A stretch of DNA of 64,000 nt from Juglans regia (Eukaryota > Streptophyta > Magnoliopsida > Fagales > Juglandaceae). Location: NCBI RefSeq assembly GCF_001411555.2, contig NC_049901.1, positions 42,586,302 through 42,650,301 of the forward strand. Direction: 5' to 3'. The translations under genes and the position numbers were made by a program. Positions 5,545-59,123 of this stretch are shown piece by piece. Under the pieces are notes generated by a model that worked only from the letters and a program-made list of their open reading frames with translations, had not been told where the DNA came from and ran no database searches. How positions within the stretch are numbered: the first letter of the stretch is position 1; each line of letters opens with the position of its first letter.

Positions 5545-8285
5545 TTTGTGTAGCTCACCATGCTAGAATGCTGTTTTAACATCAAGTTGTTGTAGCTCTA
5601 AGTCATACAATGCCACCATAGCAAGTAACACTCTGATTCAACTGTATTTCATAACTGGAAAAAAAATTTCATTAAAGTTCACACCTTCTCTCTAACTGTA
5701 GCCCTTTGTAACTAAGCGTGCCTTGTACCTTACATTTATAACACCCTGGATTCCTTCTTTTCTATTGTAAACCTATTTGCATCCAACAATCTTAATCTTC
5801 TTCGGCAACTTAACAAAATCCTAGGTTTAGTACTTGTGAAGAGACTCAATCTTTTCAGTCATCATTGTGCACAATTAAGCAGACTCCTTACTCTTGATAG
5901 CTTCTGAATAATTGGAAAGCTCTTGGCCATCAATGTTTTGTGCCGTAAAATATGCATACATCACCATGTATGCATGAACATATCTCTAAGGTGGCCTGAT
6001 CTACCTACTTTGTTTACATATAGTTATACTGTAGTCTTGCTCACCCTGTGCGCCATTATCAGAATTAGAATCATGTTTACCAACAATAGCATGATCTTGG
6101 GTGCCGCCTGGCACCACTTGTGAAGCCTCAACCTGTAACTCCACTTTCTTGCCATTACCATACTATTTACCTATAGACACAGTAAAATACTTTCTTGGAG
6201 TAAGCATGGATTGTTCATCAAATACAACATCCCTACTAATTACAAACTTGGGTGATTTAGGATCAGTACACTATAACCTGAATCCTTCCAATGAATATGC
6301 CGACCTTCTTTGTCCTTGGTTCAAGTTTCCCATCATTAACATGAAAATATGCAGGATAACAAAAAATTTTCAAATTTGAATAATTAGCAGGAGTACAAGA
6401 CATACCTCATTTTGAGTTTTTAAACCAATAGCTATGGCTTGAGAGCGGTTAATCAAATACCAAATGACAAGCTATGTTGACTGCTTCAACCCATAAATCT
6501 TTAGCTGTGAAGTGTGTCTAACTATGCAATGTCTGACAATACTTTCATCTTTTCAAAAGTTTTCAAACTCACATCTGTAAAATTTCATACCATTGTCAGT
6601 TCGTAGTCGCTTTACCTTCTTGCCTGTTTGATTTTCAATCAAATTCTTCTATTGTTTAAGTTAGCAAATATATCGCTATTTTATTTCAGAAAATAAACCC
6701 AAACATTGTTTGAGTAATTATCAATAAAAGTGAGCAAATACTGAGTTCCACCTTTCAATGGAACAAAAGATGGACCTTAAAGATCAGAATGAATATAGTC
6801 CACAGTACTTTTAGTTTTGTAAACCCATGTAGTAAACTGAACCCTGCACTGTTTATCAAACACATAATATTTACAAAATTCAAGTTTCCCTATCTTCTAA
6901 TCACACAACAAACCCCGCTTACTCAGATAGTCATCCCATTCTCACTCATATGACCCAAACACATGTGCCACAAACGGGTAATGTTAGAGTCTGGATCATC
7001 TGAAATAGACACTAACATAAAGAAAATAAAGATCATCTGTATACTTATCACTATACTGCCCTGAAGAAAATAAAGTTCATCTGTCCTATCTCCTTTCATT
7101 TCAATCATGCAGCCCTTACTAACATTAATAGTTTCACCTTCACTGGTGTACCAGAAACCGCAAAAAAATAAGATTTTTCTTCAAATCTGGGACTTGTCGG
7201 ACGTTAGACAATGTCTTGACAATCCTATAAAAAATCTTAGTCCTAACTAAATCAATGCCAACAATTTTACAAGCCATGTCATTCCCCATCAAAACAGAAC
7301 CATTGTTGACTCGCTCATAGGTAGTGAATCAGTCCCTCTTGGGACACATGAAAAGTACAAGTTGAGTCCATAACCTACTTGTCACCAAAGCGACTATTAG
7401 AGCCGCTAATTGCTAAGACAAAATCTGAACCATTAGACTTTTCATCAACAATGCTAATGACATTAGAGGAACTCATGCCTTCCTTTTTGTTTTTCAGTTT
7501 TGGACACTCATTCTAGTAATGACCAAACTTATGATAGTAATGATATTTAATATTTTTCTTGTTAAATTTTGACTGTGAATTGCCCCTGGATTTACTACTG
7601 TTCTTCTCTAAACTCCTTTCATTAGATCTACCTCTGCTAGAGGAACCCTTAACAAACAAACTACTGGCTTGATTATCTACCCCCTTCAAATTCAATTCAG
7701 TTTTCAATTCCTTAGAATTCAAAGTAGATTTCACATTTGTCAAGAAAATAATATCTCTACCAAACAACATTGAATTCACAAAGTTATCAAACGACTTAGG
7801 AAACGAATACAAAATAATTCAGGCTTGATCTTCTTCAAGCTTAATGTCCATATTCCTTAAATCCGTAATAATTTTATTAAATTCATCTAAGTGTTTAGAG
7901 ATAGGAGTACATTCCTTTATTTTGAGCGTGTATAACTGTTGCTTCAGATACAAACGGTTTGTGAGCGATCTCTTTATATACAGGTCCTCAAGTTTAGTCC
8001 AAAGACCAGCAACGGTCTCCTAATCAGCAACCTCCCTAAAAAATCCATCTGATAATGACAACAGAATAGCACTGTGTGCTTTCTCTTCTTCTTCTCATGA
8101 CGATGCAGAAGAATTATCATACACATTCTCATCCAATACCTTTGACAAACCTTGTTGTCGCAGCAAAGCCTTCGTCTTGATGTGCCATAAACTGGAACTA
8201 TTCTAACTGTTGAATTTTTCCACTTCAAACTTTGCCGTAGCCATCCTTCAAGATCTCACACAGAGCCTTGGCTCTGATACCAGTT
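5545..8285 (-). pseudogene. Truncated Ty1/copia gag-pol (gag, integrase, start of RT)
   Basis: Reading the minus strand from right to left gives copia domains in order, all broken by stops. A gag segment ends in a degenerate zinc knuckle (KYHYYHKFGHY, near 7520). A GAG-pre-integrase piece has LWHMCLGHMSENGMT (near 6930). The integrase core has GPSFVPLKGGTQYLLTFIDN (near 6720-6820). A post-integrase piece contains HVNDGKLEPRTKK (near 6320). The start of reverse transcriptase follows, with LELQQLDVKTAF then a stop (near 5580). The element ends abruptly at about 5540 inside RT, so its 3' half and 3' LTR are missing. Its 5' LTR is at 8287-8992 and a tRNA-iMet-type primer site (TGGTATCAGAGCC) lies at about 8271-8283. 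Confidence 0.8.
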
Positions 8286-15802: not shown

Positions 15803-17175
15803 CTAGTGAGAGACTCGAGTTGGGGGTAGTTCTTGAAGATGAATGGGTTTCGGTCTGTGGGCTTTGGGCCTCATCAAGGAAGACGTGCCTTGAGATATAA
15901 ACACGCCGTGTATTTGGATCGATGATCGGTAGGCATTTTGAGTGAGGGAATAGCCCAAGAAGATGCAGGGTGTGGATTTAGGCTCCATTTTGTGTTTGTT
16001 GTATGGTTTGGTGAGAGGGTAACACAAACAGCCAAATTTTCTCAATTTGAGATAATTTTGAGAAAATTTGGTCGTTGTCCAAAGAGAGCCTGGTACGGGG
16101 ATTTATTTTGGAGTAACGGGGTGGGTTGACGATTTATAAGTACATGGTCATTTGAAAAGCATGTGGCCAATATGAGAGAGGTAAATTTGCATCATGGAGC
16201 AATGTGATCCCAGTTTCCACAAGATGACGGTGACGTCGTTTAGAGACACCATTTTGTTGTGGTGTGTGTGGAGCGGCAGTTAAATGACATATGCCGTGAA
16301 GAGAGAAAAATGATTTCAATCTCACATATTCACCCCCGTTGTCCGAGTATAAGGTTTTAATTTTGCATTGGATCTGGTTTTCAACAAGAGTTTTGAATTA
16401 TGGAAAAATTGTTGCCACCCCGGATTTTGTTTCCATCAGATAAAATCACATGTATTTAGTATGATGGTCAATAAAAAGAAGGTAATAGAGCCATCTAAAC
16501 CCACAATGAGCGGAACCCCAAACATCGGTATAAATTAGTTCAAGGGGTGCCTTACTCGAGAGACTAGTAGAACTAAATGGTTGTTGATGAACTTTATTGA
16601 TTGAACATGAGGTACATAAAAGAGACTCTTTAGTTGTTGTGATTGGAAGCGAAAAATTATGAACAACATTGTGAACAATTTTGGAGGACGGATAACCAAG
16701 ACGTTTGTGCCAGCCATCAACAGAGGTTCTTTCATGCACATTAGCAACCATTTTGAAGGAAGATGCCACCAACGATTTCGGAAAAATGTAGACACCATTT
16801 TTACATGCACCTCTTACCAGGGCCACATTCGGGATCTTGTCCTTCACAAGAAAATAAGAAGGTTAAAATTCAATCAACACATTATTTTGAGATTTAAAGT
16901 GGTGCACAGATATAATATTTTTGCAAAGGCTTGGGACACAAAGTGCATCTTTGAGAATGAAAATTTTTTTTGGGTGATTTTAAAGTTAGGGATCCAATGT
17001 GTGAGACAGCCAAACCTTAACTATCACCAAGCACAAGTTCATCAGTGCCATCATATTCTGAGTGAATGGATAAATTGTTGAGATCTCCAGTGATATTATG
17101 AGAAGCAGTAGAGTCCATGAGCCATTTATTGTCCGTGACATTGGAAGTAGAGGTACAATTAGCAGTGACTGCATG
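15803..17175 (-). pseudogene. Copia protease and integrase remnants
   Basis: Minus-strand fragments in order. A protease relic has WLMDSTASHNITGD (about 17095), with the usual DSGA changed to DSTA. A pre-integrase segment has HKRLGYPSSKIVHNVV (16710). An integrase segment contains LELIYTDVWGSA and YYLLFIDHHTKYM (about 16450-16540). Next is HGICHLTAAPHTPQQNGVSKR (about 16250), and then the post-integrase piece RKFGCLCYPL with the phrase PKSTPCIFLGYS (about 15990-16045). Frameshifts and stops separate the pieces. Confidence 0.85.
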
Positions 17176-17478
17176 AGGATTCAGTTGGAGACATGACTTG
17201 GCCGTGTGACCAATCTAGTCACAAAATTGACATTTTGGCTGATATCTTTTCTGATTGTTATTGGGTCGGCCCGAGGACTTGTTTTGAGGCCGTGAGTATT
17301 TATTTTGGCTCTGGTTGCGTGAGAACAGAGGGCATGCCTTGATTCTTCTGGTAGGAACTTCCAGAATTGGTCTTGTGATCCTCATAGTTCGCCGACACCA
17401 TAAGCTATTGAGTGGCGGTCTCTAGAAGCCAGCGATAGCTGTTGTGGCCTACCAAAAGATCATGGAGCTCTTCGAAGG

Positions 17479-18066
17479 TCAAAATTTCTCCCTCGCACGG
17501 ATTGGTACAACTATTTCCCTGAAATCAGAACCCAAACCATTAAGGATGTAAAGGGTTAGATCATCGTTAGATATGGGATGGTCAATTAGAGCTATCTCAT
17601 CAGCCAATGCCTTTACGACATGGAGATACTCCGGAATCGAGCGATTTTCTTTTTGAATCAAGGTAATTTCTTCCTTGAGTTGCATAGCTTGCATTCGAGA
17701 TCTACTAGCATACATATGATTCAATTTTTTCCACGTCTCATGGGATGTTTTAGCGGTAGCTATGAGAGGAGTGATGGTGGTGGAGGTTGAAGCAAGGATG
17801 GCACTGAGAATCAACTTGTCTTGCTGAACCCAATGGGTTTTTTGTAGGGCATATTCAGGAGTGTCATCAGATGATGGACACACAGAAACTCCAGTGACAT
17901 AGTCCAATAGGTCGTACCCAATGAGAAGAGCTTCGAATTGGGCACGCCATTGTGGAAAGGTGGAGGGGATTAATTTCTCATTGATTTGGGTTGTGATGTT
18001 AAGAGCAACCAGTGGTGTTTCGGTTGGGGAGAGAGGTTGATTGTTTGGATTTTGGGAAGAAGACAT
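17479..18066 (-). pseudogene. Copia gag (UBN2/retrotran_gag type)
   Basis: From the likely start MSSSQNPNN (18066) the frame stays open to 17479. It contains the copia gag pattern (NITTQINEKL, FPQWRAQFEALLIGYDL, LILSAILASTSTTI, AKTSHETWKKLNHMYASRSR, IPEYLHVVKALADEIA). It stops before the zinc knuckle, whose relic (CQFC-x-IGH) is out of frame near 17210. The longer frame back to 18117 would run into the primer site and is unlikely to be native. Confidence 0.85.
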
Positions 18067-18116
18067 GTTGGAATAAGGGATCGTAGTCACGTTTGAGTGG
18101 TGGTCTCTTGATACCA

Positions 18117-18385
18117 TGTAAAGAAATGTAGAGAGAGTGTTTCAATGGAAATCTTCTCAATTCAATTTATGTGTTGAGTATATAATTTATACAGTGTACA
18201 TGCCTATATTAAGGAATTACAGCAATCTAACTATAGAAGAATATACATTAGTTTTTGCTAGAATCCTGCTGCATTATCTATTTACATTAATTATAGAAAT
18301 TAGTAGCACTATTCTTGGTGAGAATATCTGCATGATTTTGGGTTAGGAATCTTGTTGATTGTCGTTTGATTGATCTGCCTTGAGA
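18117..18385 (-). repeat. 5' LTR of the copia element
   Basis: Matches 13587-13861 along its length. On the minus strand it is followed by TGGTATCAAGAGACC, a primer-binding site for initiator methionyl-tRNA (complement of about 18101-18115). Confidence 0.9.
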
Positions 18386-18819
18386 GATCGTTATATCTAG
18401 TAGTTTATAATTGTATGATAGGGTTTGCTAACTTTAATAAAAGGACAAGCAAACAGCTGCTCAATTCCTAAATGAAAAGATTGATAAAGCACAACGAAAA
18501 GAAATGATCGAGAAGCTAGCTAGCTACTAAAGAATCTCGTCAACTTCATATATTCTTTTGGATATGTGTATAGAGTGTGTATATAGTAATTAATCAGCAT
18601 GAATGATTAATTATACAAACAAACAAAAATACAAAGAAAAACCAAAAAAGAATAGCTAGCAAACTTTTTTGTTGTTATTATTCTCACAATAAGTACATTA
18701 CTGAATTAAAAAATGTACCACAACGTTTTGGATTAATAGGTCATCATGATTCTCTTTCTATTTTATTTATTTCTTTATTTATTTTGCTTTTATATCTTTA
18801 TTCTTGTTATTAATGATAG

Positions 18820-19950
18820 TTATTGTTTTGGCTGATTGTTGAAATGTGATGTCGGACTTTCGGATTGCCCCTTTTGTAGTATTGTCCCTAGCAAATGAGC
18901 CATTGGGTGACTTGTGAATGCCCTTTGACTGATTGTTGAAAGACGAGGTGGAATTGTCGGATTGAGCACAGATGGTCTAATTGGAGTGACCTTCTGCAGT
19001 GACTCCAATAACAAATGACTAGCCATAGAATGACTTGCAAAGGCCCTTTGTCTTATTGTTGAAAGTTGGCCTGAGATGATCGGATTGAGCGTAGATGGAG
19101 GAATATTAGCCTTTTTTAGTACTGACCTGAGAAAATGAGCCCTTGAGTGACTTGCGAAGGTCCTTTGGCTGATTGTTGAAAGGCGACTTGAAGTTTTTGG
19201 ATTGGGCACAGATGGAGGAATATGACCCTTTTGTAGTATTGTCCCTAGCAAATGAACCCTTGGGTGACTTGTGAATGCCCTTTGACTAATTGTTGAAAGG
19301 CGAGATGAAATTCTCAAATTGGGCGCAGATGGAGGAACATGACCCATTTGTAGTATTGCCCCTAGCAAATGAGGCTTTGGGTAACTAGCGAATGCCCTCT
19401 GATTGATTTTTGAAGGGTGAGGTGGAATTCTCGAATTGGGCGCAGGTGTACAAATTTGACCCTTTTGTAGTATTGTCCCTAGCATAAGAGTCGTTGAGTG
19501 ACTTACGAAGGCCCCTTGGCTAATTATTGAAATGTGACATGGGATTTTTGGATTGGGTGTAAATGGAGGAATATTATCCTTTTGTAGTATTGTTCCTAGC
19601 AAATGAGCCTTTGCGTGACTTGCGAATGCCCTCTGATTGATTTTTGTAAGGGTAGGTGGTATCGTCGGATTGGGCCCAAATGGACTAATTGGAGCACCCT
19701 TTTGGAGTGACTCCAACAACAAATGAGCCATGGAATAATTCGTAAAGGCCCTTTGGCTGATTGTTGAAGCTAGTAATGGGATGTCGGTGCTTGAATTAAA
19801 TGAAGATGGAGGGATTCGAGCTTTATGCTGCAACCCTAACAAAAGGATTTTGTTCATCAATAGTATTTTTTCTTCTCCATGCAAGACTCGACAAGCTTGA
19901 TTTGCATTCATGCACATTAGAAAAAGCAATGATATCACTACAGGAAGCAT
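18820..19950 (-). CDS. Secreted tandem-repeat peptide precursor (IDA/PIP-like polyprotein), intact
   Basis: 376 residues from the ATG at 19950. I chose it because it opens a clear signal peptide (MLPVVISLLFLMCMNANQA, then CRVLHGEE); the frame upstream (to 20115) is TA-repeat leader and is not shared with copy C. After residue 40 come nine units of 39-40 residues (starting about 38, 77, 117, 156, 195, 234, 273, 313, 353). Each has LLGTILQKG, then a core such as HIPPSVPNPK, VPPSAPNLR or PISPFGPNPT, then STISQRAFASHPRAH. The cores resemble the IDA/IDL (PIPPSAP) and PIP/PIPL (SGPxP) families, whose members are secreted, cleaved and sensed by receptor kinases; that role here is inference. A 20-bp deletion relative to copy C, near 18869, shifts the last unit out of frame. 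An alternative reading is a proline-rich wall protein. Confidence 0.72.
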   Translation of the reverse strand: MLPVVISLLFLMCMNANQACRVLHGEEKILLMNKILLLGLQHKARIPPSSFNSSTDIPLLASTISQRAFTNYSMAHLLLESLQKGAPISPFGPNPTIPPTLTKINQRAFASHAKAHLLGTILQKDNIPPFTPNPKIPCHISIISQGAFVSHSTTLMLGTILQKGQICTPAPNSRIPPHPSKINQRAFASYPKPHLLGAILQMGHVPPSAPNLRISSRLSTISQRAFTSHPRVHLLGTILQKGHIPPSVPNPKTSSRLSTISQRTFASHSRAHFLRSVLKKANIPPSTLNPIISGQLSTIRQRAFASHSMASHLLLESLQKVTPIRPSVLNPTIPPRLSTISQRAFTSHPMAHLLGTILQKGQSESPTSHFNNQPKQ

Positions 19951-22099: not shown

Positions 22100-22800
22100 A
22101 AAATATCTTGAATGTGTCTAATGTCTATACGGCTTTAGGTTATGGGATAATCCTTTTACACAACATAAAATACTTTGGAAAAGACTTCCAAAAGTATCAA
22201 ATATGAAGTCTCTCAAGGCATGATGCACTGAATTTGGGAATGTTCTCTAAGACATTTGGGTAGGTGTTCCTTCCAACTGTTTCATTCTAAAATTCCTGAA
22301 ACAGGGACAAAGCCAATATCTTTTTTCTCGGAAACAGAGACAAAGACAAGAGGATTCAATTATGAGGATACTCAAGATAGGCTGCCCACTGGATGCTCAT
22401 CCAATTTCTAGTGTCATCAAAGCGTTCAAGGAACATCAAATTGTAGCTCAAGTTTCAAATGTTTTAACGAAGAATGGCAAGATTATTCATACATTTTCCT
22501 TCTGAAGTGATGCGACTCTTTAACTTAAGTTCCTGTCGGATGACTCGATGCTTTTCATAGAGAAAGTGATTCATGTTTTGATTTATGTTTTAAATTGCAT
22601 GAAGGCCATGAATCATGTAGACTGGGGATTTAGGCAACAATTTCACTATGAAATATTTTCTATGTGAAATGATCATACCTCAGTTAAAGAGAACCGCTAT
22701 CAGAATATTCTGTCTATATATAATCGAAAGCATTTTCTTGTACCAACTTAGCAATTTGTTTGAGAAATCTTTGATTTTCTTTTACCTCCACCTTGCCTTC
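22100..22800. other. Unassigned sequence left of the RPS13 retrocopy
   Basis: No homology to the duplicated unit, no recognised repeat and no supported gene. The frame that leads from 22648 into RPS13 is only an upstream extension of the retrocopy. Confidence 0.4.
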
Positions 22801-22840
22801 CATGCATGGTTGAGGGTCTATTTAAATGGGAAGACGGTAA

Positions 22841-22849
22841 AAACCCTAG
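22841..22849 (+). promoter_or_regulatory. Telo-box (AAACCCTAG) in the RPS13 retrocopy leader
   Basis: Plant ribosomal-protein genes commonly carry AAACCCTA-type telo-boxes near their start of transcription. Its presence 87 bp before the RPS13 ATG suggests that part of the parent gene's leader was copied too. Whether it acts here is unknown. Confidence 0.5.
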
Positions 22850-22935
22850 CCTCTTTCTCCCCCTGGGATTTCTCTTTGAGCATAACACGAAGAGAGGCAC
22901 AACTAGAGCGCCAGAGACACTCATTCGTTGTCACC

Positions 22936-23391
22936 ATGGGTCGCGTGCATAGTCAAGGTAAGGGTATTTCGGCTTCTGCTCTCCCTTTCAAGAGGACACG
23001 ACCAAGCTGGCTGAAGATCTCTTATCAGGATGTTGAGGAGAACATCTGCAAATTTGCCAAGAAGGGTCTGACACCATTTCAAATTGGTGTTATTCTTCGG
23101 GATTCTCATGGGATTGCTCTGGTGAAGACTGTTACTAGAAGCAAGATTTTGCATATATGGAAGGTCCATGGACTTGCTCCTGAAAATTCAGAGGATCTGT
23201 ACCACCTCATAAAGAAAGCAGTCCCGATCCATAAGCATTTGGAGAGGAATATGAAAGACAAAGATTCCAAGTTTAGGTTGATTTTGGTTGAGAGCAGGAT
23301 CCATCGCCTAGCTCGCTACTACAAGAAGACGAAGAAGCTGCCACGTGTATGGAAATATGAATCTACCACAGCCAGCACTCTTGTGGCTTAG
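22936..23391 (+). CDS. RPS13: 40S ribosomal protein S13 (uS15) retrocopy, intronless
   Basis: 151 residues starting [17 protein letters not shown] and ending [12 protein letters not shown], the full usual length of plant cytosolic S13, a small-subunit protein of the uS15 family. The start at 22936 is fixed by this N-terminus; the upstream frame is leader sequence. The coding region has no introns, although plant RPS13 genes are normally split. The 3' side runs about 160 bp to an A-rich stub (near 23552-23560), so this looks like a reverse-transcribed mRNA copy. Many changes fall at positions that are nearly invariant in the family: Arg to Gln at residue 7, TPSQ to TPFQ, GSKILRI to RSKILHI, AIRKHL to PIHKHL, and LPPVWK to LPRVWK. 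The frame is open, but selection looks relaxed. It is probably a retropseudogene; a working gene is possible. Confidence 0.85.
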
Positions 23392-24890: not shown

Positions 24891-25027
24891 GGAGCTCTCC
24901 TCCACCTTTACCAATCAATCTAATCATCAAAAATTTCTATATATTTTTTCCCAAAATAAATTGGCTTGAGAGAGAAAGAGAGGGGATATAAACGGCAATT
25001 CCTTCAAAATTAGCTTTAGAAATAAAG

Positions 25028-25249
25028 ATGGGTTTATCTCGAGGGAAAAGCGTTTTCATAGTTCTGTTTTTTTTAACCATTTTATTTGCTTCTCCCCAAC
25101 TTGGAGCAATGAGGCCAATGGAAGGAGAACAATGGCGGGAGAAGGCTAGCCTTCTGGTTCTGTCCCTTCAAAAGGGTACTCCTGTCCGTCCATCTGGTCC
25201 CAATCCATGCACTCACATCCCTAGAGGGGGCAAAGGTGTATGCACCTGA
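25028..25249 (+). CDS. PAMP-induced-secreted-peptide-like (PIP-like) precursor
   Basis: 73 residues. A basic start (MGLSRGK) leads into a hydrophobic signal sequence (SVFIVLFFLTILFASPQLGA), then MRPMEGEQWREKASLL. A C-terminal core follows: SLQKGTPVRPSGPNPCTHIP, then RGGKGVCT. The size, signal peptide and a C-terminal Ser-Gly-Pro-type motif followed by Cys-Thr are what plant PIP-like (PIPL) precursors show. Such peptides are exported, trimmed and act outside the cell in immunity or development; the role here is inferred from family. The start is supported by the signal peptide and by a TATA box 138 bp upstream. The core closely matches the first repeat units of the polyprotein genes (LLLESLQKGAPI-x-P-x-GPNP), which links the two gene types. 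Intact and likely functional. Confidence 0.75.
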   Translation: MGLSRGKSVFIVLFFLTILFASPQLGAMRPMEGEQWREKASLLVLSLQKGTPVRPSGPNPCTHIPRGGKGVCT

Positions 25250-31327: not shown

Positions 31328-31783
31328 GGTGAGTTTTGGTAAGATAATATTTTTATTTCTTGTCTTTATTTAAATTTTATGATATTTATAGAATGTGTTT
31401 TTGTTATAGAATATTTCTAATAAGTTTGTGTTGTATTTTTTTGAAGGATTGCTTGTAAGAGGATATTGTGCGTGCTAGGTATATTTCTAAACTTTATCAA
31501 TATGTTGTTGTGATTTGATACTTACTTTTTATCATATTGTGATTATTGTTTGTATAGTTTGTAAATAGTTTGTGAGTTATTCTAAATATGTTGTGATATA
31601 AATTTGAAATATTGTGTTTATTATTAAAAATATATTGTCATTAGGCTTTGTTAATACATGTTTATTGCTTATTCAAGTTTAGAAATATGTTAATACATGT
31701 GGCATGTTATTTTGTGAATATATTGTGAGTTATCACTTTTATATGTTGTGATATGGATTTGATATATTGTGATAATAGTATTT

Positions 31784-32235
31784 AAGTATGATAATTAAAT
31801 ATTTATAATAATAATTAATATATAAGTAATAACAAGCATAAAAGTAACTCTTTAAGAATTATAATAATTAAAATTATTGTATAACCATTGAAATTTAAGT
31901 ATGATAATTAAATATTTATAATAATAATTAATATATAAGTAATAACAAGCATAAAAGTAACTCTTTAAGAATTATAATAATTAAAATTATTGTATAACCT
32001 TTGAAATTTAAGTATGATAATTAAATATTTATAATAATAATTAATATATAAGTAATAACAAGCATAAAAGTAACTCTTTAAGAATTATAATAATTAAAAT
32101 TATTGTATAACCTTTGAAATTTAAGTACGATAATTAAATATTTATAATAATAATTAATATATAAGTAATAACAAGCATAAAAGTAACTCTTTAAGAATTA
32201 TAATAATTAAAATTATAGTATAACCTTTGAAATTA
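31784..32235. repeat. Tandem repeat, 4 x 113 bp
   Basis: Four almost identical 113-bp units starting at 31784, 31897, 32010 and 32123, each beginning AAGTATGATAATTAAAT (AAGTACGATAA in the fourth). It sits directly before the first visible transposase exon, where intron or N-terminal exon sequence would be expected. Confidence 0.92.
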
Positions 32236-32376
32236 AGTATAACAATTAAAATTATACTTTAAGAATAATGATCTTGTACACAACGAGGGAATATAATCTT
32301 GAAGAAATGTTGAAATTTCAATTTAATTACTTGACTGTCATAGTCTCTTCGGCTTCACATAAAATCATTGTGTGGG

Positions 32377-45060: not shown

Positions 45061-45243
45061 ATGGGTTTATCTCGTGGGAAAAGTGTCTTCATAGTTCTTT
45101 TTTTTTTTTTTTTTATCATTTTATTTGCTTCTCCCCAACTTGGAGCAATGAGACCATTAGAAGGAGAATAATGGTGGGAGACGACTAGCCTTCTGGTTCT
45201 ATCCCTTCAAAAGGCTACTCCGGTTTGTCCATCTGGTCCCAAT
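45061..45243 (+). pseudogene. PIP-like precursor pseudogene (sister of 25028-25249)
   Basis: It starts MGLSRGKSVFIVL, then a T-run that has grown by whole codons into a poly-Phe signal segment, then FASPQLGAMRPLEGE and a premature TAA at 45169-45171 (CAA in the intact copy). Downstream the frame still reads SLLVLSLQKATPVCPSGPNP. It then ends at about 45247, where a gypsy LTR begins, so the C-terminal CTHIP part is gone. The TATA box of the intact copy is also missing here (CCCTATGAGG at about 44915). Three independent lesions make this a dead copy. Confidence 0.85.
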
Positions 45244-45247
45244 CCAT

Positions 45248-47944
45248 CCACATATCTCAAATAACATAATAAAATGAACTAGAGTTTACATAAGTCTCCA
45301 TAAGCCATCTAGAAATATTGAAATTCAACCACTAAATAAAATAAATCCCACAATAGCAATAGTACCCTGAGGTACTCAACTCCTATCATCAGCTAATCTT
45401 GCCCACGGATTCTATTATTGATCCTCAGCTGAACCATCAAAATCATCTAAAATATTGTGAAGATAAAGTGGTGAGTTATCAACAACTCAGTAAGCAGATA
45501 ACATATACTAGTATGTAAACATAAGCATTTACAGAGTTCTGAATGTAGAACAAAATATTTACTTTCAGAATGTTGAATCAAAACATGTTGTCAAAATATT
45601 AGAAAGATAATTTCATAAATATTCTTATTTAAAAGTACTTGGGATAGTATAATTAAGACATAATCTTATTAGAGCAGATATCACTATTATTACCATGATA
45701 GGATCGTATACAACTATTATACCCATGACATGGGCGTATACCACTATTATTACCCGTTATGAGGCCGTGTACTACTATTATGCCTATGGCAAAGCTTTAT
45801 ACCACTATTATACCCATGACAGGACCTTAACAGAACAAAATAGAAACAAAATTAGATACAGAATCAGAAAGTCATGACAAAAATTTTTTAGATTCCACAT
45901 CATATCAAAACAAAATACCGAACAAATTCAGATCATTTCAAATATTAGAAAAAAACAGATTCAGAATCTCTTCACATCACATGCACAACTTTTCAGATTT
46001 CATATTCGCTTTTTTTTTTTTGAACAGTTCAGAAACAGAATGCCAAGATATTACTCATGTCTGCACCAGCCATGAGAAAAATACTTTCTCTTTTATACAA
46101 ATTTCATGAGTAATGCAGAACACATAATTGAGATTATTTTTAAGTTTTATTTTCAAAACATAACATGCATGTTTTTCATAAATTAACGTCAGTCCATATC
46201 TTTTTAATGCAAAGTCTAAGATTGGAAACCTACTTACCCGACTCGAGTAGTGTAATCTCTACATTTTGTGACCGTAAACTAATCGTGTCACGATAACCTA
46301 AATCAAAAAATATTTGTTCACACATCAATAACCCATCTAGTACATAAACTTAGCTAACAAAAACTTTACTTCCCTAAGAATAGAATATAACAAGCTCGTA
46401 ACCATTTAAGTATGTAAATCAGCCCATAAACAGACAAATTCTACAACCAACCAACAACAATTTACTCCTGTAAATCACTCCACCATTTCACCGACTACGC
46501 TATCACAAAATCATCACCAACCCACAATTATATCCACTCTCCACATGTTACACAATCCAAACAGCGACACCACCACCCAACCAATCCACTACTCAGCCCC
46601 AAACAACAGCATGCATCACGTCTCCTCCACTTGAAAACTCCACAATTTTGAGTCTTACGACATATCCAATAGAAACCAACAAATAACAACACACTTGATT
46701 TTTATTTGTTAACCGACTTCATCTAAAATTTTTCTGCAACTTTTGACCAGTCATAACACACATAACGATGCCAATGATGAGCCTAAAGGTCTGAATATCT
46801 TACCTAAACTCGTGTGTGGCTCGTGGAATTAAAGAGCAGAATAACATGGTCTAGAGCGATGGCGACGTCCTATGATATCAAGTAGTGACGTTAAATTATA
46901 CTCAAGAGTTGGGTAATGTACCACAATGGTAATTATTGAACAAGGGCATTACCTACGTTGGTGATGGAATTTATGTGGCTCCAAACAGCGGTGATGCACT
47001 GCTGAGAAGGGAAACGATCTATGCCAAATTTTTGTGAGTGATAAGTTAGTGAAAGTGCACAGAGAGAGAGAATTAGAAAATTACTCAACAAAATTTGAAG
47101 AGACTCACTACTATCAGGCAGGATTTCGGCATAGACAACAGCAACCTACGAATAGTGGCGTTAGTGTTCTGTGTACATCAAGATGTTTTAGGATTCAAAA
47201 CAATAGAAGAAAAGAAAAAGAAAAACAATATACATGTAGACACAGAGAGAAAAATAGTGAGAATGAGAACTAGATCTAAACATTTAAAGGGAAAGCGAGA
47301 GAAATAAAAACAAGGGAGTTAACGGTGAGGGATGCTTACTGTGTTCCACTAAAATTCTGTTAAAGGGTTGGCGGCAACCGACAGAAAAACAAAACACTCA
47401 AACTAAGGTGGGGTGTCGCATGGCTACTTAGTGGGAAAGGAAAGAAATAAAATTTCAAAGAGATAAAATTGAGATAAACCTATAACTACTGGTGGAGAGA
47501 TGAACATAGAGAGAGAGGTCTGAAACTTAGAGAGAGAGAGACAAAGAGACAGAGAGAGGGGTGTGGGCTTACCGCCCTGAGGGGAGTCAGCTGGCGATTG
47601 ATCACGCATTATGTGAGGATGGTTGACGATGACAGTGATCCACAGAAACCCACGAACTGTAACAATCAAAGTCACCAAAAATCATAGGATAGGAAGAGAG
47701 AGAGAGAGAGAGAGAGAGAGATCTATTAAGAGAGGTTTTGATGTGAGAAAAAAGGGAGAACTGCAGAGGTGGGGGGTTTGTATCGAGGTGGAGGGATTAT
47801 CGGGATGAAGAAAATTGTAAGGGGAAGAAACTGTCGAGTGAGAGAAAGCTAAAAAGGAAAGGATTAATACCAAAATGATGTCATTTTCGGTCCCCCTCGT
47901 TGGCTTCTCGTGGGCTTGGTCTAGGCTTGGGCCTGAGTGTTACA
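45248..47944 (-). repeat. 3' LTR of the gypsy element, outer end truncated
   Basis: Ends (plus-strand view) in ...CCTGAGTGTTACA. Its left side starts inside the PIP-like pseudogene and lacks about 190 bp that the other LTR has (52066-52256). It includes (GA)n tracts near 47520 and 47695 and no gene. Confidence 0.8.
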
Positions 47945-57509: not shown

Positions 57510-59123
57510 CTAGTTGTTTTGGTTGATTGTTGAAATGTGACGTGGGACTTTCGGATTGGGCGCAGATGGAGGAACTTGACCCTTTTTTAATACTGTCTCT
57601 AGCAAATGAGCCCTTGGGTGACTTGCGAATGCCCTTTGACTGATTGTTGAAATGTAAGGTGGAATTGTCGGATTGGACGTAGATGGAGGAATATGGCCCT
57701 TTTGTAGTACTGCCCCAAGCAAATGAGCCTTTGGGTGACTTGCGAATGCCCTTTGACTGATTGTTGAAAGGCGAGGTGGAATTCTCGGATTGGGCATAGA
57801 TGGAGGAATATCAACCTTTTGTAGTACTGCCCCTAGCAAATGAGCCCTTGGGTGACTTGCGAATGCCCTTTGACTGATTGTTGAAAGTTGAGGTGGAATT
57901 CTCGGATTGGATGCAGATGGAGGAATATGGCCCTTTTGTAGTACTGCCCCTAGCAAATGAGCCTTTGGGTGACTTGCAAATGCCCTTTGACTGATTGTTG
58001 AAAGGCGAGGTGGAATTCTCGGATTGGGCATAGATGGAGGAATATCAGCCTTTTGTAGTACTGACCCAAGCAAATGTGCCCTTGAGTGACTTGCGAAGGC
58101 CCTTTGACTGATTGTTGAAAGGAGAGGTGGAATTGTCGGATTGGATGCAAATGGAGGAATATGGCCCTGTTGTAGTACTACCCCTAGCAAATGAGCCTTT
58201 GGGTGACTTGCAAATGCCCTTTGACTGATTGTTGAAAGGCGAGGTGGAATTCTCGGATTGGGCATAGGTGGAGGAATATCAGCCTTTTGTAGTACTGCCC
58301 CTAGCAAATGAGCCTTTGGGTGACTTGCGAATGCCCTTTGACTGATTGTTGAAAGGCGAGGTGGAATTCTCTAATTGGGCATAGATGGAGGAATATCAGC
58401 CTTTTGTAGTACTGACCCAAGCAAATGTGCCCTTGAGTGACTTGGGAAGGCCCTTTGACTGATTGTTGAAAGGAGAGGTGGAATTGTCGGATTGGATGCA
58501 GATGGAGGAATATGGCCCTTTTGTAGTACTGCCCCTAGCAAATGAGCCTTTGGGTGACTTGCGAATGCCCTTTGACTTATTGTTGAAAGGCGAGGTGGAA
58601 TTCTCGGATTGGGCATAGATGGAGTAATATCAGCCTTTTATAGTACTGACCCTAGCAAATGTGCCCTTGAGTGACTTGCGAAGGCCCTTTGACTAATTGT
58701 TGAAAGTTGACCTGGATTTTTTGGATTGGGCACAGATGGAGGAATATGAGCTTTTTGTAGTATTGTCCCTAACAAATGAGCCCTTGGGTGACTTGCAAAT
58801 GCCCTCTCACTTATTGTTGGAAGGCGGGGTGGAATTCTCGGATTGGGCGCAGATGGTTTAATTGGAGTGCCCATTTGCAGTGATTCCAACAACAAATGAG
58901 CCATGGAATGATTCTTGAAGGCCGTTTGGCTAATTGTTGAAGCTAGTAGTGGGATGTCGGTGTCTGAATTAAATGAAGATGGAGGGATTGGAGCTTTATG
59001 CAATGACCCTAACAAAAGGCTTTTGTTCATCAATATTATTTCTTCTTCTCCATGCAAGATTCGGCAAGCTTGATTTGCGCTCATGCATATTAGAAAAAGC
59101 ACTGTTGTGACTACAAGAAGCAT
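57510..59123 (-). pseudogene. Secreted tandem-repeat peptide precursor (IDA/PIP-like polyprotein), two nonsense codons
   Basis: From the ATG at 59123 a single frame of 537 codons runs to 57510 without any indel. It is broken only by TAA at 58638-58640 (codon 162, Gln in other units) and TAG at 58371-58373 (codon 251, Pro in other units). The signal peptide is MLLVVTTVLFLICMSANQA, then CRILHGEEEI. Thirteen units follow: an N-terminal one with APIPPSSFN, one of 40 residues (MGTPIKPSAPNPRIPP), ten of exactly 39 and a short last one (QVPPSAPNPKVPRHISTIN). Most later units alternate between cores GHIPPSASNP and ADIPPSMPNP, forming a 234-bp higher-order repeat. The spacer STISQRAFASHP(K/R)AHLLG is nearly constant. 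A truncated 161-residue product with three complete cores is possible, so partial function cannot be excluded. Confidence 0.75.

Follow-up and report, generated by a model that had tools for sequence, protein, structure and literature searches.

PMC9191895 describes CTNIPs as peptides that stress induces and that are sensed through HSL3, with recruitment of BAK1; the filter applied there to candidates was two cysteines 9-11 residues apart in the C-terminal core, and both cysteines were required for the activity of CTNIP4 and for its binding to HSL3. The same paper gives length limits of <150 aa and then 300 aa for the published search, and the cysteine pair as necessary for its confident set (PMC9191895). 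CTNIP/SCREW peptides have also been implicated in the reopening of stomata, in immune signalling and in the growth of roots. A review holds that CTNIPs are unrelated in sequence to IDA, CEP and PIP (PMC12907539), and a research paper groups CTNIP, IDA, CEP and PIP by a PSGP core (PMC11331138). In PMC4526919, IDA/IDL peptides are defined by S(G/A/V)PS followed by (R/K)(R/K)HN and PIP/PIPL peptides by SGPS with GxGH, and in Arabidopsis double cores are given for PIP2, PIP3 and PIPL1 and none is reported for IDLs. Precursors with several cores have also been described among CEP and CLE genes.

We analyzed a window of 64,000 nucleotides of the walnut (Juglans regia) genome (C1:42586302-42650301, with C1 taken as walnut chromosome 1), which contains an uninterrupted minus-strand frame of 376 aa, here called JrB, with its ATG at 19950 and its stop ending at 18820. 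Its features are as follows, in window positions, with the cores of units 1 to 8 read from the sequence.

18820..19950, minus strand: JrB, candidate multi-core CTNIP-like precursor; one open frame, relative P0001 at E 3.6e-28
19891..19950, minus strand: N-terminal hydrophobic signal-like segment, residues 1-20, then a conserved Arg; from the sequence, aligned in five paralogues or relatives
19786..19833, minus strand: unit 1 anchor and core, LQHKARIPPSSFNSST
19660..19707, minus strand: unit 2 core, LQKGAPISPFGPNPTI
19540..19587, minus strand: unit 3 core, LQKDNIPPFTPNPKIP
19423..19470, minus strand: unit 4 core, degenerate, LQKGQICTPAPNSRIP
19306..19353, minus strand: unit 5 core, LQMGHVPPSAPNLRIS
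19189..19236, minus strand: unit 6 core, LQKGHIPPSVPNPKTS
19072..19119, minus strand: unit 7 core, LKKANIPPSTLNPIIS
18952..18999, minus strand: unit 8 core, LQKVTPIRPSVLNPTI
18820..18879, minus strand: ninth unit, with LQKG anchor, core missing and last 15 residues in another frame; from alignment with four paralogues

The hydrophobic N-terminus, MLPVVISLLFLMCMNANQAC, is followed by R, so that the segment ends NQAC-R; we call it signal-like from sequence reading and alignment. The units have the form LQKG-(H/N)IPPSAPNPK-IP...STISQRAFASH.RAHLLGTI and a size of 39-42 residues, and in the pooled units the spacer STISQRAFxSH is conserved about as well as the core. A sequence-only reading of this DNA had proposed an intact gene for a secreted precursor of nine units, eight of them with a proline-rich core, and the unit count was borne out: JrB contains nine LQ/LK-type anchors, of which eight are followed by such a core (HIPPSVPNPK, VPPSAPNLR and PISPFGPNPT among them). 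The word 'intact' was accurate for the open frame. However, a 20-bp deletion, absent from all four paralogues aligned, lies exactly at the ninth core, with the result that this unit is coreless and its last 15 residues are out of frame, and the displaced frame is still visible at 18813-18887; 'intact' therefore applies to the frame only and not to the full unit set, and constraint on JrB is weak or absent (see below). The DNA of JrB is a tandem repeat with a period of 117 bp (6.9 copies, score 727, Tandem Repeats Finder), and in the search against plant proteins that had been proposed, P0001 aligned with 88% of the JrB length (E 3.6e-28). Taken together, these two observations indicate that the frame is no chance product. 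Pfam matches on JrB to LRR_5 and DUF2007 were sub-threshold only and were judged composition artefacts, and NCBIfam gave no match for four repeat proteins. Fragments at 15803-18117 (minus strand), adjoining JrB, resemble the gag and pol of a copia-type retrotransposon.

A search covering the 571-Mb walnut genome, whose match counts are lower bounds, placed at least four clustered repeat genes on C1 (JrA, JrB, JrC and JrD, all on the minus strand), JrE and a fragment on C4, and JrF on C10.

C1, 1 kb before the window, minus strand: JrA, open, 461 aa
57510-59123 of the window, minus strand: JrC, multi-core paralogue, one frame throughout with two in-frame stops
C1, beyond the window, minus strand: JrD, open, 384 aa
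C4, L027:1450-2952: JrE, open, 500 aa, 12 unit matches
C10, minus strand: JrF, 185 aa, 4 unit matches

JrC shares the window with JrB and is longer; its stops are TAA at 58638-58640 and TAG at 58371-58373. The sequence-only account of JrB mentioned neither JrC nor the one-core CTNIP gene at 25028-25249, and did not comment on the conserved spacer. The unit profile described below matched 9-12 units in JrD, JrA and JrE and four in JrF. The units of JrE (L027:1450-2952 on C4) build a three-unit higher-order repeat, which points to recent expansion. Several diverged cores are also present in P0060, another annotated walnut chromosome 1 protein, of 217 aa.

Relatives in other plants were sought in protein searches that each scored only the 7992-7995 candidates sharing most words. 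Among the candidates scored, JrB alone as a query found one relative (P0001), a six-sequence profile found 25 proteins at E<=0.1 and a 20-sequence profile found 112 at E<=1; P0001, P0002-P0025 and 25 later proteins were inspected whole, and the other 66 of 116 by pattern counts. The relatives with a named source, mostly annotated as 'hypothetical', come from Carya, Carpinus, Castanea, Quercus, Lithocarpus, Morella, Juglans, Camellia, Bertholletia and Hibiscus. The genera from Carya to Juglans belong to Fagales, Camellia and Bertholletia to Ericales and Hibiscus to Malvales. A precursor in which a signal-like segment precedes a series of related proline-rich cores, as the sequence-only reading had proposed, finds support both in the anatomy of JrB and in the relatives from other plants. 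Unit number varies, with five in Camellia P0024 and about six, counted by eye, in Bertholletia P0027. Cores frequently read VPPSAPNPGTHIP or PSVPNPGTNIP. In 148 loose-pattern matches in the 116 proteins, the place of the first cysteine is occupied by Gly (73), Asp (28), Pro (20) or Cys (2), and GTHIP occurs 36, GTYIP 15 and GTNIP 8 times. A tree of the N-terminal part (26 rows, without CT4, a one-core gene listed below) had good support for 5 of 23 inner branches and does not distinguish a single origin of the repeats in Ericales and Fagales from more than one. The precomputed annotation PF27884 is carried by multi-core P0011, P0013 and P0030 and by CTNIP-type P0114, which suggests that multi-core and CTNIP-type proteins are one family; it was not recovered in our own Pfam search and is not used as support. 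Two serine carboxypeptidase-like models, P0073 (Quercus suber) and P0097 (Q. lobata), end in PSAPNPDTYIP-type cores, four and three respectively, which reflects either genes joined by annotation or a genuine fusion.

The cores of JrB had been likened to those of IDA and PIP, a comparison that we do not uphold. By motif count, S(G/A/V)PS, (R/K)(R/K)HN and GxGH are all absent from JrB and the five other walnut repeat proteins (6/6), so that these proteins contain neither the S(G/A/V)PS then (R/K)(R/K)HN arrangement of IDA/IDL nor the SGPS with C-terminal GxGH of PIP/PIPL, and profile comparisons favor CTNIP-type sequences. Profile A2, made from 20 multi-core proteins with no cysteine-pair CTNIP among them, matched Hibiscus P0109 (E 2e-4), P0114 (0.015) and P0116 (0.55), each of which has one core and a cysteine pair 10 residues apart, for example GCTNIPGTAGPIC. 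The tail of P0109, QAFAGHVM, matches the JrB spacer STISQRAFASH, and P0109 therefore aligns with the whole unit.

We then scored single sequences with a unit profile built from 31 multi-core proteins in the register LLGSLQKG...FAGHNMA, and made 1000 shuffles per sequence as controls, the fractions being given over reported shuffles only. P0109 scored 41.8 bits (shuffles <=7.0, 0/891 as high), P0114 27.0 bits (0/818) and P0116 16.5 bits (0/483). The register had been changed before these final scores from VPPS...LQKG, which split the motif and gave 21.6 bits for P0109, 7.3 for P0116, -1.7 for P0114, 3.8 for IDA and 5.0 for CLV3. In the final register, nine of 10 CTNIP-type sequences scored 16.5-41.8 bits and outscored every IDA, IDL, PIP, CLE and CEP tried, a comparison set of a handful of sequences in which IDA is that of Arabidopsis. 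The similarity of the repeat units to the CTNIP/SCREW core has one exception, 9wum_B, scored as a 20-residue fragment without the LQKG part (3.6 bits, 22/1620 reported shuffles as high). JrB itself, with 376 aa and eight cores, is not a small one-core precursor of the CTNIP/SCREW kind.

It is quite unlikely, in our judgment, that the units are IDA/IDL- or PIP-like peptides for HAESA-type or RLK7-type receptors, although part of the evidence points that way. Units and IDA have an LxKGxPIPPSAP stretch in common; the Arabidopsis IDA core alone scored 15.5 bits with 0/1973 reported shuffles as high, whole IDA 12.1 bits (0/848) and IDL6 12.4 bits (0/924, and 1/1835 in another run), so that IDA too exceeds its reported shuffles. 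A signal peptide followed by Arg is likewise found in IDL/PIP, according to PMC4526919. Against this, the diagnostic motifs are missing, IDA aligns with only the first half of the unit core, and the scores of IDL7 (4.9 bits), PIP1 (0.4), PIP2 (2.1), CLV3 (6.7) and CEP1 (-0.1) are low. The weak IDA score fits the grouping by a PSGP core in PMC11331138.

Because P0109, P0114 and P0116 had been found with the family profile, we added tests free of that choice. The unit profile was run over 2044 six-frame segments of >=20 aa from the window, which were not chosen by CTNIP similarity. Apart from the two repeat genes, the profile matched best at 24992-25246 (E 7e-9) and then at 45172-45261 (E 2e-7), followed by the displaced frame of JrB (E 0.0057) and then noise (0.66, 0.85). 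The two best matches correspond to the following features, both from the six-frame profile scan.

25028-25249, plus strand: CT2, complete ordinary one-core CTNIP gene, 73 aa, ending SLQKGTPVRPSGPNPCTHIPRGGKGVCT
45061..45264, plus strand: psiCT3, decayed CTNIP copy

CT2 lies 5 kb from JrB and has the CTNIP-diagnostic cysteine pair with 10 residues between, and psiCT3 has an in-frame TAA, Ser instead of the first core Cys, and an end from which the second Cys is missing. An extended scan of 214 kb (134 kb of the C1 cluster region plus 40 kb at JrE and 40 kb at JrF) gave as non-repeat matches at E<=0.05, besides the displaced JrB frame, five intact CTNIP-type genes and psiCT3, the new genes being CT0, CT1 and CT4 on C1 and CT10 on C10. 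In all five intact genes (CT0, CT1, CT2, CT4 and CT10) the cysteines are 10 residues apart. In contrast, a cysteine pair 9-11 residues apart occurs in none of the six walnut repeat proteins; after residue 20, JrB has two Cys and the other five have none.

In a search of 177,635 distinct PDB sequences (>=20 residues), profile A2 gave a single match, 9w1s_C (E 0.007), named 'Transmembrane protein' by the depositors, which reads LQRGPVSGSGPNGCTNIPRG and is a CTNIP-motif peptide; JrB alone and profile A1 gave no match in the PDB. IDA peptides in the PDB are presumably shorter than 20 residues and hence no competitors in this search. CT2 also matched 9w1s_C (E 0.0021) and the CTNIP-motif peptide 9wum_B (23 residues, E 0.042), and judging from the motif these two are probably Arabidopsis CTNIPs. 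The unit-profile scores and the PDB match therefore place CTNIP/SCREW (HSL3/NUT) nearer than IDA (HAESA) or PIP (RLK7), and homology of the repeat family to CTNIP/SCREW is, at the level of sequence, well supported.

We also considered a structural hydroxyproline-rich cell-wall protein whose repeats stay unprocessed, as the tandem repeats do contain proline. Extensins and other hydroxyproline-rich wall proteins have high proline, long proline runs and tyrosine cross-link motifs. The repeat proteins do not have this composition: proline is 11-17% only, the longest run is 2-3 and tyrosine is at most 0.6%. The conserved non-proline spacer and the homology to CTNIP precursors also make a wall protein improbable.

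The order on C1, with strands, is CT0(-) CT1(+) JrA(-) JrB(-) CT2(+) psiCT3(+) JrC(-) CT4(+) JrD(-), and on C10 about 6 kb separate JrF(-) from the CTNIP gene CT10(+). The combination of a plus-strand CTNIP and a nearby minus-strand repeat gene is thus seen on two chromosomes. No CTNIP was found within the 40 kb around JrE on C4. Synonymous distances were 0.26-0.41 between CT10 and CT1, CT2 or CT4, and 0.33-0.60 (leader) between JrF and JrA-JrE, and the distance reported for walnut duplicate blocks is 0.40 (PMC7238675). The pairing of CTNIP and repeat gene may therefore predate the walnut genome duplication. The window contains two further features. An ORF at 22648-23391 (plus strand) holds a seemingly complete intron-free gene for 40S ribosomal protein S13, possibly a retrocopy, and at 31780-32250 an AT-rich sequence with a period of 113 bp is repeated in tandem (4.2 copies, 98% matches).

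The state of these copies bears on the possibility that the cluster is a decaying minisatellite-like remnant without present function. Two stops in JrC, the 20-bp deletion in JrB and one dead CTNIP copy would be expected of such a remnant, and JrB is near-neutral against JrA and JrD: in tests that treat changes as independent and depend on the unit alignment, JrB-JrD was exactly neutral (147/194 changes nonsynonymous, p 1) and JrA-JrB gave p 0.44, with JrB-JrE (p 0.013) and JrB-JrC (p 0.04) intermediate. However, nonsynonymous changes were fewer than neutral in the full-length comparisons of JrA-JrE (142/238 changes, p 9e-8) and JrD-JrE (114/191, p 1e-6), and also in JrC-JrD (p 0.0003), JrA-JrC (0.0007), JrA-JrD (0.005) and JrC-JrE (0.009), so that the open genes JrA, JrD and JrE show purifying selection in their mutual comparisons. 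JrC is broken yet constrained, and its stops may therefore be recent. On the JrB lineage, the ratio of nonsynonymous to synonymous changes was about neutral when set against JrA (80/25) or JrD (83/24) and below neutral when set against JrC (75/37). The JrA and JrD lineages each fell below neutral once (p 0.04 and 0.015), which a further comparison of each did not show (0.37 and 0.41), and the JrB lineage did not differ significantly from that of JrA or JrD (Fisher p 0.11, 0.30). A neutral JrB lineage of 107 changes would have about 4 stops, and 0 were seen (P about 0.02). Together with the open frames of relatives from two genera of Ericales and several Fagales, these results make a functionless remnant unlikely. 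JrB, the copy in the window, looks relaxed, perhaps recently, and is probably losing function; JrA, JrD and JrE, which lie outside the window, are better preserved.

In 17 units of JrA, JrD and JrE, the spacer varied mostly at the third codon position (0.033, 0.111 and 0.183 for positions 1 to 3), and the core had no third-position excess (0.081, 0.066, 0.088). In view of its conservation and third-position variation, the spacer may be part of the active peptide or of the cleavage site. In eight 39-residue units of JrC (57579-58514), a small sample, variation in the cores falls mainly on the first two codon positions, and the spacers are almost invariant.

We consider it reasonably probable that JrB belongs to a family of precursors with many cores, probably secreted, that derive from CTNIP/SCREW or share an ancestor with it and that would release peptides. 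This reading draws on the gene and its units, the sequence kinship with CTNIP, the linkage, the relatives in Fagales and Ericales, and the constraint on the paralogues. Secretion, processing, receptor and activity are what it predicts. Each unit of 39-40 residues would be the counterpart of the module SLQKG-x-PV-x-PSGPNPCTHIP at the C-terminus of CTNIPs, with other residues in place of the paired cysteines, and would also cover the QxxFAGH tail that P0109, a tailed CTNIP of Hibiscus, carries. Removal of the signal peptide, and then cuts within the repeated spacer, would yield several CTNIP-like peptides without cysteines, eight in the case of JrB, which might serve as additional or modulating ligands of HSL3/NUT or a relative. 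CTNIP4 needs its cysteines, and the repeat units may therefore not be HSL3 agonists; the peptides might instead have another HSL3 binding mode, compete with CTNIP, or use another receptor. More tentatively, it is possible that in Fagales and Ericales a second arm of CTNIP signalling has evolved that does without the cysteines, in which polyproteins, in walnut beside one-core CTNIP genes, release a peptide mixture that competes with or tunes CTNIP at HSL3 or binds a diverged HSL3-type receptor, with agonist and modulator encoded by neighbouring genes. The spacer STIxQ(R/K)AFxGH, which is conserved, would then be part of the mature peptide or a protease site.

JrB and its kin would be filtered out by the published length limit and cysteine-pair rule. 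In the literature searched, which was covered mostly as listings and passages, relatives of CTNIP with many cores or without cysteines were not described, and six unit-motif strings had no occurrence. Multi-core CTNIPs are unmentioned in the available parts of PMC9191895, PMC11331138, PMC13056886, PMC12907539, PMC13157962, PMC4526919, PMC10704477, PMC9532867, PMC5853212 and PMC7238675. Should the units prove active, there would be either exceptions to the cysteine rule or a competing class of ligands that has escaped notice in walnut, oak, chestnut, hornbeam and Camellia, and the known receptors make a direct test possible.

Compared with known systems, the walnut repeat proteins resemble multi-core CEP and CLE precursors in having several cores per precursor, and differ in the core sequences (CLV3 6.7 and CEP1 -0.1 bits). 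With PIP/PIPL they share a proline-rich SxP core, and PIP2, PIP3 and PIPL1 have two cores, whereas GxGH is absent from the repeat proteins and the unit profile gives 0.4 (PIP1) and 2.1 bits (PIP2). The LPKGxPIPPSAP stretch and a signal peptide are shared with IDA/IDL; SGPS and (R/K)(R/K)HN are not. Compared with CTNIP/SCREW, the repeat proteins have up to 12 units instead of one core, are without the paired cysteines, and are larger, with 376-500 aa (JrF 185) against 73-106 aa in seven of eight full-length CTNIP-type sequences, the eighth, P0116, being a 185-aa model. They nevertheless resemble CTNIP/SCREW in the signal-like N-terminus, in LQKG followed by a V-PSGPN-x-x-T-x-I-P core, in the QAFAGH tail of Hibiscus P0109, and in genomic neighbourhood.
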